Positions 46,485 to 50,056 of a DNA stretch of 64,000 nucleotides are shown here, piece by piece. The first letter of the stretch is position 1, and every line of letters begins with the position of its first letter. This DNA is from Chryseobacterium sp. T16E-39 (GTDB lineage Bacteria; Bacteroidota; Bacteroidia; Flavobacteriales; Weeksellaceae), in the NCBI RefSeq assembly GCF_002216065.1, contig NZ_CP022282.1, positions 434,001-498,000 on the forward strand, in the 5' to 3' direction. The notes below the pieces were generated by a model. It had not been told where the DNA came from, searched no databases, and was given only the letters and a program-made list of their open reading frames with translations. The translations under genes were made by a program, and so were the position numbers.

Positions 46485-47588
46485 ATGGAAAATTTCATCG
46501 TATCTGCAAGAAAATATCGCCCACAAGAGTTTGACACTGTTGTTGGGCAATCACATATTACGGATACTTTAGAACATGCAATTGAAGAGAATCAGTTAGC
46601 ACAGGCTTTGCTATTTTGTGGGCCTCGTGGTGTTGGTAAGACAACCTGTGCCAGAATTCTGGCCAGAAAAATCAACGAAAAGGACGGTTCCGTTTCAGAA
46701 GATGGCTTTGCTTATAATATTTATGAGCTGGATGCTGCCTCAAACAATTCAGTGGATGATATTCGCGAATTGATCGATCAGGTGCGCTTTGCACCCCAGG
46801 TTGGACAATATAAAGTATATATCATTGACGAGGTACATATGCTGTCTTCTGCAGCCTTCAATGCTTTCCTTAAAACGCTTGAGGAACCTCCTGCGCATGC
46901 AATTTTTATTCTAGCAACAACAGAAAAGCATAAGATCATTCCAACGATTTTATCACGTTGCCAGATCTATGATTTTAAAAGAATCGTTATTGAAGATATT
47001 CAGGGCCATTTGAGAAATATTGCCCAAAAAGAAAATATTCAATATGAAGACGATGCTTTATATCTTATTGCTCAAAAAGCTGATGGCGCATTAAGAGATG
47101 CACTTTCTATTTTCGACAGACTTTCAACATTTTCTCAAAAGAATATTACGCTTGCTAAAGCAGCAGAAGTATTGAATATTCTGGATTATGACCAGTACCT
47201 GAATATCCTTGATCTGGCTAAAGAAAATAAAATTCCGGAAGCCCTTTTTGCATTTAATGAAATTGTAAAAAAAGGATTTGATGCCCATATCTTTATTGCG
47301 GGATTGGGAAATCATTGCAGGGATTTGATGATGGCTCAAAATACGTCGACAATCGATTTGATCGAGGTAGGAGAGAAAACTAAAATTAAATTTGTTGAAC
47401 AAAGCCAGAAATGGAATGCTCAGCAGTTAATTGACGCCATCGAAATCTGTAATCATGCTGATATCAATTATAAAAATTCTAAGAATCCAAGACTTACTGT
47501 AGAAATTGCGTTAATGCAATTATGTTCTCTGACGGCTCAGTCAGATGTTAATAAAAAAAAAGTTCATAATATTAGCTCCCTTTCTTAA
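46485..47588 (+). CDS. dnaX: DNA polymerase III gamma/tau, gamma-length frame
   Basis: 367 residues. AAA+ clamp-loader ATPase with Walker A GPRGVGKTT (46-54), Walker B VYIIDEVHML and sensor motif FILATTEKHKIIPTILSRCQ. The usual four-cysteine zinc module between Walker A and ELDAASNNS is missing; the segment is short and Cys-poor. The frame ends soon after a run of nine A (47553-47561), giving a gamma-like protein that stops at LS; the tau continuation is open in another frame. DnaX assembles the clamp loader and, in its tau form, joins polymerase cores. Either slippage at A9 or a sequence error explains the break. Confidence 0.92.
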   Translation: MENFIVSARKYRPQEFDTVVGQSHITDTLEHAIEENQLAQALLFCGPRGVGKTTCARILARKINEKDGSVSEDGFAYNIYELDAASNNSVDDIRELIDQVRFAPQVGQYKVYIIDEVHMLSSAAFNAFLKTLEEPPAHAIFILATTEKHKIIPTILSRCQIYDFKRIVIEDIQGHLRNIAQKENIQYEDDALYLIAQKADGALRDALSIFDRLSTFSQKNITLAKAAEVLNILDYDQYLNILDLAKENKIPEALFAFNEIVKKGFDAHIFIAGLGNHCRDLMMAQNTSTIDLIEVGEKTKIKFVEQSQKWNAQQLIDAIEICNHADINYKNSKNPRLTVEIALMQLCSLTAQSDVNKKKVHNISSLS

Positions 47589-48186
47589 GGAAAAGCAGGA
47601 GGTAAAAATTGTACAAAAAGAAAATCCTCAGCCTCTTAAGCAGGAAAAAATTGAAAAAGTCCCCGAAGTAAACAATCCTTCAGCAGAACCTGCAATCAAA
47701 AAGACCTCTAAACCTTTATCTAAGGGACTTTCCTCAGGATTTAGCATTAATTCCTTTCTTAATAAAGAGGAAAAGGTGGAAAATGAAGAAGCTGTTGTTA
47801 CCAAAGCAGAAAATCTCCCACAGCATCATTTTACTGAAACTGATCTGCTCATGGAATGGAATTTATTCCTGAAACAAATCCAATTCAAGCAAGCGGTAGT
47901 TTTTAATGCAGTTAAATCTTTTAAATTGGTTAAAATCGATGAGACTAAGATCCAGGTTTTATACCCTTCGGACTCTGCAAAGGTCGAATTTGATAAAATA
48001 AGCGGGGAATTTTTTAATCATTTTAAAAGAAAAGTGTTAAATTATTCAATTGAAATTGAGTATAAAAAAGACGTACAAAACCTTAAAATAGAGGTGGTTA
48101 CGAAGAAAAAGATATTCGAGAAATTCATTGAGAAGAATCCCTTACTAAAAGATCTTGATGATTTAATGAAGTTTGATTTGTCATAA
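47545..48186 (+). CDS. dnaX: DnaX tau C-terminal region in the shifted frame
   Basis: This frame is not an independent gene: it continues DnaX once the frame moves at the A9 run. Losing one A (or gaining two) joins codons up to 47561 to those from 47563, giving about 566 residues. The segment has a Pro/Lys-rich linker (PQPLKQEKIEKVPEV) and a C-terminal domain of about 110 residues (LMEWNLFLKQIQFKQAVVFN; FFNHFKRKVLNYSIEIEY) typical of Bacteroidota tau. The ATG at 47545 lies before the slip site and is not credible as a start. Confidence 0.82.
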   Translation: MLIKKKFIILAPFLKEKQEVKIVQKENPQPLKQEKIEKVPEVNNPSAEPAIKKTSKPLSKGLSSGFSINSFLNKEEKVENEEAVVTKAENLPQHHFTETDLLMEWNLFLKQIQFKQAVVFNAVKSFKLVKIDETKIQVLYPSDSAKVEFDKISGEFFNHFKRKVLNYSIEIEYKKDVQNLKIEVVTKKKIFEKFIEKNPLLKDLDDLMKFDLS

Positions 48187-48191
48187 TTTTA

Positions 48192-48199
48192 TATCTTTG
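48192..48199 (+). promoter_or_regulatory. Promoter -7 element for the aromatic leader and DAHP synthase
   Basis: TATCTTTG matches TAnnTTTG just after the dnaX stop, with TTTG at 48172-48175 (16 nt upstream) as -33 candidate. Transcription from here would give a leader of nearly 400 nt before the ATG at 48598. Confidence 0.55.
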
Positions 48200-48282
48200 T
48201 CAAATATTTTTGTTTAAAATACATTTTTGACAAAAGCAAATTATAAATTGTAAAGCTAGAAATAGACGATTCACAGTATAAA

Positions 48283-48426
48283 GTGGAAAAATTATTGATC
48301 CCATATCTGTCTACTTTAAACCTTTTTGGTTTTATACCCGCTGATTATTTTAGCGGTTATTCTAGTTTTTTTGCTACTTATTATAGAAATTTTAGAAGTT
48401 ATTACCGATTTTATTGGTATTACTAA
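48283..48426 (+). CDS. Aromatic-rich leader peptide (candidate attenuator)
   Basis: A 47-codon frame from GTG 48283 (alternatively TTG 48295) to TAA 48424, preceded by an A-rich stretch usual for starts here. Its last 24 residues, beginning SGYSSFF and ending RFYWYY, contain 8 Tyr, 4 Phe and 1 Trp. It lies alone in the long leader of the gene for the first enzyme of aromatic amino-acid synthesis. Small hairpins overlap its codons: CCGCT/AGCGG (48338-48356) and TACCGAT/ATTGGTA (48403-48419). A ribosome short of charged Tyr/Phe/Trp tRNA would stall over these. Not a stable protein in my reading; its role is regulatory. Confidence 0.78.
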   Translation: MEKLLIPYLSTLNLFGFIPADYFSGYSSFFATYYRNFRSYYRFYWYY

Positions 48427-48597
48427 TTAAATTTCTTTCCAAAAAATAGGAATAAAAGATCTTCTCTTGTTTAATTCCTAACTCCAATAAAAATTTTTTA
48501 ACGGCATTTTTTGAAAAGAATTATAAAATAAATTTTATAAGGGAAGAACTTGTTGTGTATAATAATATTAAAAATAAGATAAAAATAAATTAACAAA
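48427..48597 (+). promoter_or_regulatory. Leader segment between aromatic peptide and DAHP synthase
   Basis: Downstream of the leader peptide a hairpin TAGGAAT ... ATTCCTA (about 48447-48480, 7 bp plus imperfect inner pairs) is followed by AAAAATTTTTT (48490-48500). This may be the switchable structure; it is not a textbook terminator because the T run does not directly follow the stem. The remaining bases to 48597 are AT-rich. Confidence 0.4.
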
Positions 48598-49677
48598 ATG
48601 AATTTAAAAGATTTAAAAAACGATTGGATTAATGAGTTTTCACAGCCATTAATGATCGCCGGACCATGTAGCGCTGAAAGTGAATCGCAAATGCTGGAGA
48701 CTGCAAGAAGGATAAAAGAAACGAATGCACAAGTACCTGTTTTTCGTGCTGGTATCTGGAAGCCCCGTACGAAACCAAATGGTTTTGAGGGAGTTGGGGT
48801 GATCGGATTGAACTGGTTAAAGAAAGTAAAAGAAGAATATGGTTTTAAAACGGCTACCGAAGTCGCTAATGCACACCATGTTTTCGCTGCTTTGGAAGCA
48901 GATGTTGATATCCTTTGGATTGGTGCAAGATCTACAGTAAATCCATTTACCGTTCAGGAAATTGCAATGGCGTTGAGGGGTACTGAAAAAACTGTATTGG
49001 TTAAAAACCCGGTTAATCCGGATTTAGCATTGTGGATCGGGGCTTTAGAAAGACTTTTAGGACAGGGTATTCAGAACCTTGGAGCAATTCACAGAGGTTT
49101 TTCTACCTACCAGAAAACAAAATACAGAAATAATCCGAACTGGCAGATTGCTTTGGATTTTAAAAGCCAATTCCCTAATATTCCAATGCTAATTGACCCA
49201 TCTCATATTTGTGGAAATAGAACAGGCTTGGCAGATGTTACTCAGGAAGCTATGAACGTTGGTTACCAGGGTGCTATCATAGAAAGTCACTGTAATCCTG
49301 ATGAAGCGTGGAGTGATGCTTCACAGCAAATCACGCCTGAAGTTTTATCAGAATTAATTGGTAATCTGAAAATGAGAAACTCAGGATTAGCAGGATTTGA
49401 TGGAGAAATGGGAAGACACAGAACATTAATTTCTGATCTCGATTTTCAACTAATTGAATTACTTTCTCAAAGAATGAAAATTTCTGAGAAAATAGGTAAA
49501 CTTAAGAAAGAAAATGATATCGCTATTTTCCAGCCTGAACGATGGAAAGTAATTACTGAATATGCTACTCAAAAAGCTAAGGAAACAGGAATGTCTCAGG
49601 ATTTTATTGAGAAAGTTTTCAAAGCGATTCATGAGGAATCTATTGAGGTACAGAATAATATTATGATAGAAAGATAG
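48598..49677 (+). CDS. Bifunctional DAHP synthase / chorismate mutase type II
   Basis: 359 residues. About 1-260 is the KDPS-like type I-beta DAHP synthase (IAGPCSAESESQML; VFRAGIWKPRTKPNGFEG; IDPSHICGNR; IIESHCNPDEAWSDA), joining PEP and erythrose 4-phosphate. About 270-359 is an AroQ chorismate mutase (LISDLDFQLIELLSQRMKIS; IGKLKKENDIAIFQPERW), which makes prephenate. The fusion is standard in Bacteroidota and couples pathway entry with the Phe/Tyr branch, so control by Tyr/Phe supply is expected; the leader peptide upstream fits. A heptad array follows its stop. Confidence 0.93.
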   Translation: MNLKDLKNDWINEFSQPLMIAGPCSAESESQMLETARRIKETNAQVPVFRAGIWKPRTKPNGFEGVGVIGLNWLKKVKEEYGFKTATEVANAHHVFAALEADVDILWIGARSTVNPFTVQEIAMALRGTEKTVLVKNPVNPDLALWIGALERLLGQGIQNLGAIHRGFSTYQKTKYRNNPNWQIALDFKSQFPNIPMLIDPSHICGNRTGLADVTQEAMNVGYQGAIIESHCNPDEAWSDASQQITPEVLSELIGNLKMRNSGLAGFDGEMGRHRTLISDLDFQLIELLSQRMKISEKIGKLKKENDIAIFQPERWKVITEYATQKAKETGMSQDFIEKVFKAIHEESIEVQNNIMIER

Positions 49678-49685
49678 TCGGCAGA

Positions 49686-50056
49686 AGACAATAGTTAGTA
49701 GATTTTAGGGCTTAGGAATGAGGAGAGTACGAGAGTGAAATTTCGACGTATCCTGAATCTTAGGTCCTAATTTTTGTTGGGAGGGAGGTAATAGGTAGCA
49801 GGATTTAGGTATTAGGTATTAGGTATTAGGTATTAGGTATTAGGTATTAGGTAGCAGGATTTAGGTAGTAGGAATTTGGGAGGATAGGAGCTAAAAGTTA
49901 GCTGGGTTGATATATCACGCCTTAATTTTGTTATCAAATATGAGAAGTAACAAACACTTGATTTCTAATATCCAACACTATAACTATAACCTATAACCTA
50001 AATCCTGCTACCTACTACCTGACGCCTGCAACCTAATACAACCTATCACCTAATTC
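49686..50056. repeat. Heptad-repeat array B (two inverted arms)
   Basis: Eight nt after the stop codon six 7-nt units start in phase, each beginning AG (AGACAAT to AGGAGAG, 49686-49727). From 49786 thirteen more units follow in strict register: AGGTAAT, AGGTAGC, AGGATTT, six AGGTATT, AGGTAGC, AGGATTT, AGGTAGT, AGGAATT (to 49876). At about 49985-50055 the inverted arm reads, on the minus strand, AGGTAGT, AGGTAGC, AGGATTT, AGGTTAT. The two arms share GGTAGCAGGATTTAGGT exactly, so a long imperfect hairpin can form. Confidence 0.88.

Follow-up and report, generated by a model that had tools for sequence, protein, structure and literature searches.

A probable ribosome-sensed aromatic leader peptide before the only DAHP synthase gene found in Chryseobacterium sp. 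T16E-39

In the trpL and pheL attenuators of Escherichia coli the ribosome stalls at codons for the end product and alternative helices form around the leader stop codon, and both systems need a terminator before the structural gene. The two attenuators are named in a review (PMC11802643) which also describes, citing Neshat 2014, an aroR leader that precedes aroF (DAHP synthase) in Corynebacterium glutamicum. According to the summary in a paper from 2010 (PMC2965389), leader peptide systems were known in Proteobacteria and Actinobacteria and, beyond these, just from that paper's own find in Firmicutes. In Bacteroides, small open reading frames in long 5′ UTRs have been called "reminiscent of leader peptides" (PMC7366714), and a study that touches on flavobacterial amino-acid operons (PMC9723704) mentions conserved structured 5′ elements before pheA and hisG and strong clues of leader attenuation upstream of such operons. 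The same source names a TAnnTTTG consensus and states that translation start in Bacteroidota uses signals other than the Shine-Dalgarno sequence.

Here, we describe an element upstream of a DAHP synthase/chorismate mutase gene, here called aroG, in Chryseobacterium sp. T16E-39 (the window is a 64,000-nucleotide stretch of contig NZ_CP022282.1, positions 434,001 to 498,000). Judged from its sequence and that of its relatives, the element is likely to be a leader sensed by the ribosome that controls the sole DAHP synthase gene of the genome, with aroG expression going up on aromatic shortage. C. glutamicum aroR is likewise an aromatic leader peptide before a DAHP synthase operon, but it belongs to another phylum and is set apart by the review's description, where Phe-Tyr-Phe alone is named; the leader described here has 41–52 codons, carries 9–14 aromatic residues among its last 24, contains a hairpin and is followed by no terminator-like site. 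With the E. coli attenuators it shares product codons and helices around the stop codon, but no terminator was found. Leaders containing Phe or Tyr also occur at 7 of 19 pheA loci of relatives: L167 and L179 come from two genera of the window's family, the remaining five (L168, L172, L173, L176, L178) from other Flavobacteriales. These are likewise placed ahead of an aromatic-pathway gene but precede pheA, not aroG, and in six of the seven the scan detected a terminator-like hairpin followed by a T-run. Chryseobacterium sp. T16E-39 also has a his leader (L181), which is likewise rich in its end product but short and followed by a strong terminator; by its sequence it appears to be a classical histidine attenuator. 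The aroG element is thus a known sensing idea with a different anatomy, and it is lineage-specific. No published report of it was found in the open-licence papers searched, from which absence from print is not claimed. If true, the proposed regulation would explain how entry into aromatic synthesis is controlled at the sole DAHP synthase gene in a large genus, and since leader attenuation needs a ribosome close behind RNA polymerase, the element would constitute a natural test of coupling in Bacteroidota.

The leader frame, its promoter box and its target gene

The features that the initial annotation had described from the letters of the window, a promoter element directly after dnaX, a 47-codon GTG frame with an aromatic tail and two hairpins (P2a and P4 in Table 1), were all found in place, with the promoter box located immediately past the dnaX stop. 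The final 24 residues of the frame include 8 Tyr, 4 Phe and 1 Trp and end in RFYWYY, as claimed. When the intergenic stretch was shuffled 2000 times with its dinucleotides preserved, 4 shuffles attained 13 aromatic residues in 24 open codons, so that the tail exceeds chance; the frame is unusual by sequence alone, and the comparison with relatives is decisive.

Table 1. Predicted features of the aroG leader region, in window positions, and the his leader of the same genome
Feature	Position	Strand	Sequence and remarks
-7 promoter box	48192..48199	+	TATCTTTG; flavobacterial TAnnTTTG type; motif
Leader ORF	48283..48426	+	GTG start, 47 codons, TAA stop: MEKLLIPYLSTLNLFGFIPADYFSGYSSFFATYYRNFRSYYRFYWYY
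P1 hairpin	48338..48356	+	CCGCTGA/TTAGCGG; inside the ORF, U-rich Tyr/Phe codons next; terminator-like or pause-like
P2, strand 1	48386..48395	+	GAAATTTTAG, with one bulged T; Arg-Asn-Phe-Arg codons
P2a hairpin	48403..48419	+	TACCGAT/ATTGGTA; within Tyr-Arg-Phe-Tyr-Trp-Tyr codons
P2, strand 2	48427..48435	+	TTAAATTTC; immediately 3′ of the leader stop
P3, 5′ strand	48435..48446	+	CTTTCCAAAAAA; first base shared with P2 strand 2
P4 hairpin	48448..48479	+	AGGAAT/ATTCCT; sequence varies in relatives
P3, 3′ strand	48507..48518	+	TTTTTTGAAAAG; complementarity
P5 A/U hairpin	48521..48540	+	TTATAAA/TTTATAA; consensus fold
aroG, DAHP synthase/chorismate mutase	48598..49677	+	profile matches
his leader (L181)	before hisG		MKPNFLTLHHYYHHLC, then terminator CCGTCTGAGTAACAGACGG + T7

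The aroG protein scores above the cut-off of PF00793 and matches models of DAHP synthase and chorismate mutase, while all 25 NCBIfam models shown remain below their curated cut-offs. Searches with PF00793 and the class II profile found aroG as the sole DAHP synthase gene in the genome: the profile search for a class II enzyme gave none, and the other PF00793 match is KdsA, which scores above its own cut-offs and is not a second DAHP synthase. The pheA gene of the same genome was considered as a second target and rejected, having no leader upstream by eye; it lies 85 nt after another gene, near a contig end.

A total of 85 leaders were compared, comprising the window, the best 80 of 283 relative loci (78 from Chryseobacterium and two from Weeksellaceae metagenome-assembled genomes) and 4 of 40 further loci (L125, L126 and L127 of genus g28, and L147 of g51). 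All of the best 80 of 283 loci have an aromatic-rich frame with a form of RNFRxYYRFYWY at its end, 136–177 nt before the gene, a count biased to near relatives because the 80 closest loci were taken. All 85 loci have a TAnnTTTG box within the 200 nt that precede the leader start, positioned at −71 to −98 in 36 of the 38 loci printed and at −48 in L077 and L078, and the comparison thus supports a putative promoter of the leader's own. A candidate second promoter, TTGAAAA...TATAA (48511–48540), does not match TAnnTTTG and was dropped on inspection.

The leader frame is open in every one of the 85 loci, against 32 for the +1 frame and none for the +2 frame, and its last 24 residues contain 9 to 14 aromatics throughout. 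The GTG start, regarded there as a weak point, gains support from the relatives: the chosen start, 41–52 codons before the stop, is ATG in 39 loci, GTG in 38 and TTG in eight, the outermost being taken where several candidates occurred and the GTG in L056. On the basis of 1237 of 3570 sequence pairs, those 80–97% alike, pN/pS was 0.39 for the leader as a whole; the codons preceding P1 gave 0.73, those of P1 itself 0.67 and the aromatic block 0.18. The last value indicates strong constraint on the aromatic block at the protein level, and from this conservation we infer that the frame is translated. The comparison of upstream regions, the check originally proposed, accordingly recovers a conserved Tyr/Phe-rich frame in which synonymous changes dominate the aromatic block. 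The element is not spread over the whole family, as an RNA model, run with stricter filters, matched in 3 of 33 genera.

RNA helices around the aromatic codons

Consensus folding gave six helices, P1, P2, P2a, P3, P4 and P5, some of which overlap the aromatic codons (Table 1). In an alignment of 38 diverse sequences (A1), P1, P2, P2a, P4 and P5 taken together had 94.1% of 1328 cells paired, and 13 of their 35 pairs showed two-sided changes. None of 500 shuffles scored as high on any of five measures, and 32–52% of cells were paired when the structure was slid; the shuffles ignore kinship, which by itself can lift sequences above them even where no structure exists. The two-sided changes are concentrated in P1 (6 of 7 pairs) and P4 (4 of 5, with 79.4% of its cells paired), followed by P2 (2 of 9) and P2a (1 of 7), and none occur in P5.

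The caveat of kinship is eased by two observations. Four loci (L032, L053, L056 and L076) have lost the bulged U of P2 and regained the frame downstream, by which residues of the motif were rewritten, and P2 has become nine unbroken pairs, including one G-U in three of the four. In the diverged locus L182, which comes from a genome without a match to the covariance model, other bases can form P2 (AGAAGAAT/ATTCTTCT), P2a (CAGTT/AACTG) and P5 (TTATCAT/ATGATAA), as read from its sequence. The comparison thereby supports predicted RNA helices overlapping the aromatic codons, and among the proposed features it is the promoter box, the translated frame, the aromatic constraint, P1, P2 and P2a that are supported in this way.

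P3 is of a different kind. It is paired in 93.1% of A1 cells yet nearly invariant, and shuffles were not beaten; P3 thus lacks covariation and is proposed from complementarity. As both helices use the bases just past the leader stop, P3 could compete with P2, and in L182 six of these bases can pair either way; L183–L185 have P3 as CTTTTC/GAAAAG. A strict either/or switch between P2 and P3 would be one possibility, yet P3 is almost without covariation and the two helices can coexist in consensus folding.

Other pairings were set aside. Leader TTTATTGG pairs perfectly with downstream CCAATAAA in the window, but by eye relatives do not keep this complementarity, and a long-range pairing of the U-rich aromatic codons with the A-rich start of aroG, present in one consensus fold, was left aside since U-rich and A-rich stretches pair easily. 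A search of positions 47900–48800 against Rfam release 15 gave no family match; the sole match up to an E-value of 5, mir-2943 on the opposite strand (17.8 bits against a gathering score of 76, E 2.5), is taken as chance.

Proposed control of aroG and the question of a terminator

The initial annotation had proposed a Tyr/Phe/Trp attenuator in which changed folding opens the operon. Its translated aromatic leader, promoter box and helices over the aromatic codons find support here, but its terminator does not: in a scan requiring a stem of 5 or more pairs, 3 of them G-C, with a T-run behind it, none of the 85 loci gave a terminator-like site in the stretch from leader stop to gene, and the doubt already voiced about an imperfect terminator was justified. 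With the same scan, 6 of the 7 pheA leaders from relatives gave terminator-like sites, the one missed (L172) having a terminator by eye, and so did the his leader in the window's genome. The usual output of an attenuator is therefore missing behind the leader. Within the leader frame, on the other hand, a terminator-like site was present in 78 of 85 leaders compared with 57 of 850 shuffles, and 75 of these 78 are found where P1 lies, 66–73 nt ahead of the last base of the leader stop; P1 is also the only such site in 48150–48650. Terminator likeness proves little by itself in this case, since Tyr and Phe codons themselves spell a U-run, and P1 may either pause or stop the polymerase.

The interpretation in the initial annotation is partly supported: sensing of aromatic amino acids by the translating ribosome is the best reading of these observations, but a terminator behind the leader, as in a classical attenuator, was not found. 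Transcription would start just past 48199 and the 47-codon leader would be translated. RNA polymerase would probably pause at P1, which borders the aromatic block some 70 nt ahead of the leader stop, and wait there for the ribosome to arrive. When charged Tyr- or Phe-tRNA, perhaps also Trp-tRNA, is scarce, the ribosome would come to a halt within the aromatic block and occlude P2 strand 1, leaving P2 blocked and the sequence after the stop free for downstream pairing (P3). With charged tRNA in plenty the ribosome would finish and leave, and P2 and P2a could form. That a stall covers P2 strand 1 and that completion lets P2 form follow from the layout; the polymerase pause, the ribosome stall, the direction of control and the exclusion between P2 and P3 are what we infer. 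The choice of helix would change aroG expression, upwards on shortage, and the final step may act on how far the transcript is elongated (perhaps with Rho involved), on translation or on the stability of the mRNA. A more specific version is put forward tentatively, as a possibility. Here the attenuator would have no terminator following the leader; the U-tract of the terminator-like hairpin in the frame would consist of the very Tyr/Phe codons that do the sensing, so that pausing or termination and ribosome progress would be settled inside the 47 codons, and the conserved P2/P3/P5 RNA would pass the result to aroG by means other than intrinsic termination.

A classical trp/phe-type transcription attenuator could still be at work if the scan overlooked a weak or atypical terminator, such as P4 or an A/U hairpin preceding the T-run that starts at 48507. 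The arrangement of helices resembles the 1:2 and 2:3 layout of E. coli attenuators, the T-run has 5–8 T in all 38 rows of A1 and a classical his attenuator is, by sequence, found in the same genome. However, the controls were detected where none of the 85 aroG loci gave a site. The run comprises only 3, 3 and 4 T in the diverged relatives L183, L184 and L185, and just predictions of 2–3 pairs end directly before it in the consensus folds, for which reasons 48507–48512 was rejected as a terminator U-tract. This explanation appears unlikely. The termination could alternatively reside in the leader, with P1 and the U-rich Phe/Tyr codons ending transcription unless a ribosome is close behind. The frequency and fixed position of the P1 site agree with this, but its U-run is a by-product of the codons, the site is absent in 7 of 85 leaders, L182 has by eye no U-run after its P1-like hairpin, and stalling at early aromatic codons would give control in the wrong direction. 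We consider a terminator gated by translation in this manner quite unlikely.

The nascent chain itself might instead stall the ribosome. TnaC is a nascent chain that stalls the ribosome in response to tryptophan, and RNFRxYYRFYWY, which is nearly constant in the genus, could similarly act as an arrest peptide responding to a free aromatic amino acid. This is made very improbable by the four loci with a double frameshift, in which motif residues were replaced but the RNA helix was kept, by the loss of the motif in L182 and by the variants RYYWYS, RHYWYS and RFYWLS; these loci leave no strictly kept arrest motif, although a looser one is possible. Least credible of all, and extremely improbable in our view, is that the frame is either incidental to a structured 5′ UTR without translation or encodes a small working protein. 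The strong RNA structure and the +1 frame open in 32 of 85 loci are compatible with an untranslated region, but the dominance of synonymous changes in the aromatic block, the interchangeable start codons and the frame open in all loci are not expected from it, and the N-terminal part is loosely constrained (pN/pS 0.73), unlike in most working proteins. Control through the ribosome that translates the aromatic block thus remains our preferred explanation.

Distribution in the family and neighbouring sequences

A covariance model built on P2 to P5 was used to search 296 genomes of the family, with filters whose stricter settings may lose weak matches. It matched 170 of the 296, once in each, in 3 of 33 genera; by our own count of rows these were 145 of 149 genomes of the window's genus, 23 of g28 and 2 of g51. 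Of the four genomes of the window's genus without a match by this count, G234 has kept an open 41-codon frame with fewer aromatics. The match ends 51–57 nt before the gene in the four rows compared (G002, G008, G017, G226). A core 27-mer, allowing up to 3 mismatches, occurs once in the window's genome and revealed no second element, and a plasmid search with the stretch gave no match.

No such frame was seen in the 27 other family loci or in any of the nine loci from the order when the best frames printed from 600 nt were inspected by eye, a scan in which the gene start was unresolved in L117 and may have been placed too far upstream in L133 and L143. Many of these 27 loci have a frame resembling the end of DnaX that stops 5–86 nt before the gene, and in several other genera aroG lies within tens of bases of dnaX with no leader. 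The element seems to be tied to aroG and to have been gained or kept only in this clade, and its distribution suggests a regulator that originated inside a single family.

The dnaX gene preceding the element (46485–48186) is split between two frames whose overlap falls on nine consecutive A (47553–47561). The same kind of split, with 7 or more A in a row, was found in 78 of the best 80 loci, the contigs of L012 and L022 having too little upstream DNA. By its sequence, the run looks like a conserved slippage or frameshift site giving long and short forms of DnaX, and such a site is what Thermus uses to make its long and short DnaX. On the other side of aroG, between this gene and rsgA, an AGGTATT tandem repeat is present in 13 copies (49786–49876), and the unit of a second array at 49988–50039 contains the reverse complement AATACCT. 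In the g28 loci L125 and L126 a hairpin and T-run is located just upstream of the leader promoter box, in L125 as GCAGATTCGTCTGC followed by TTTTATTTTTTT.
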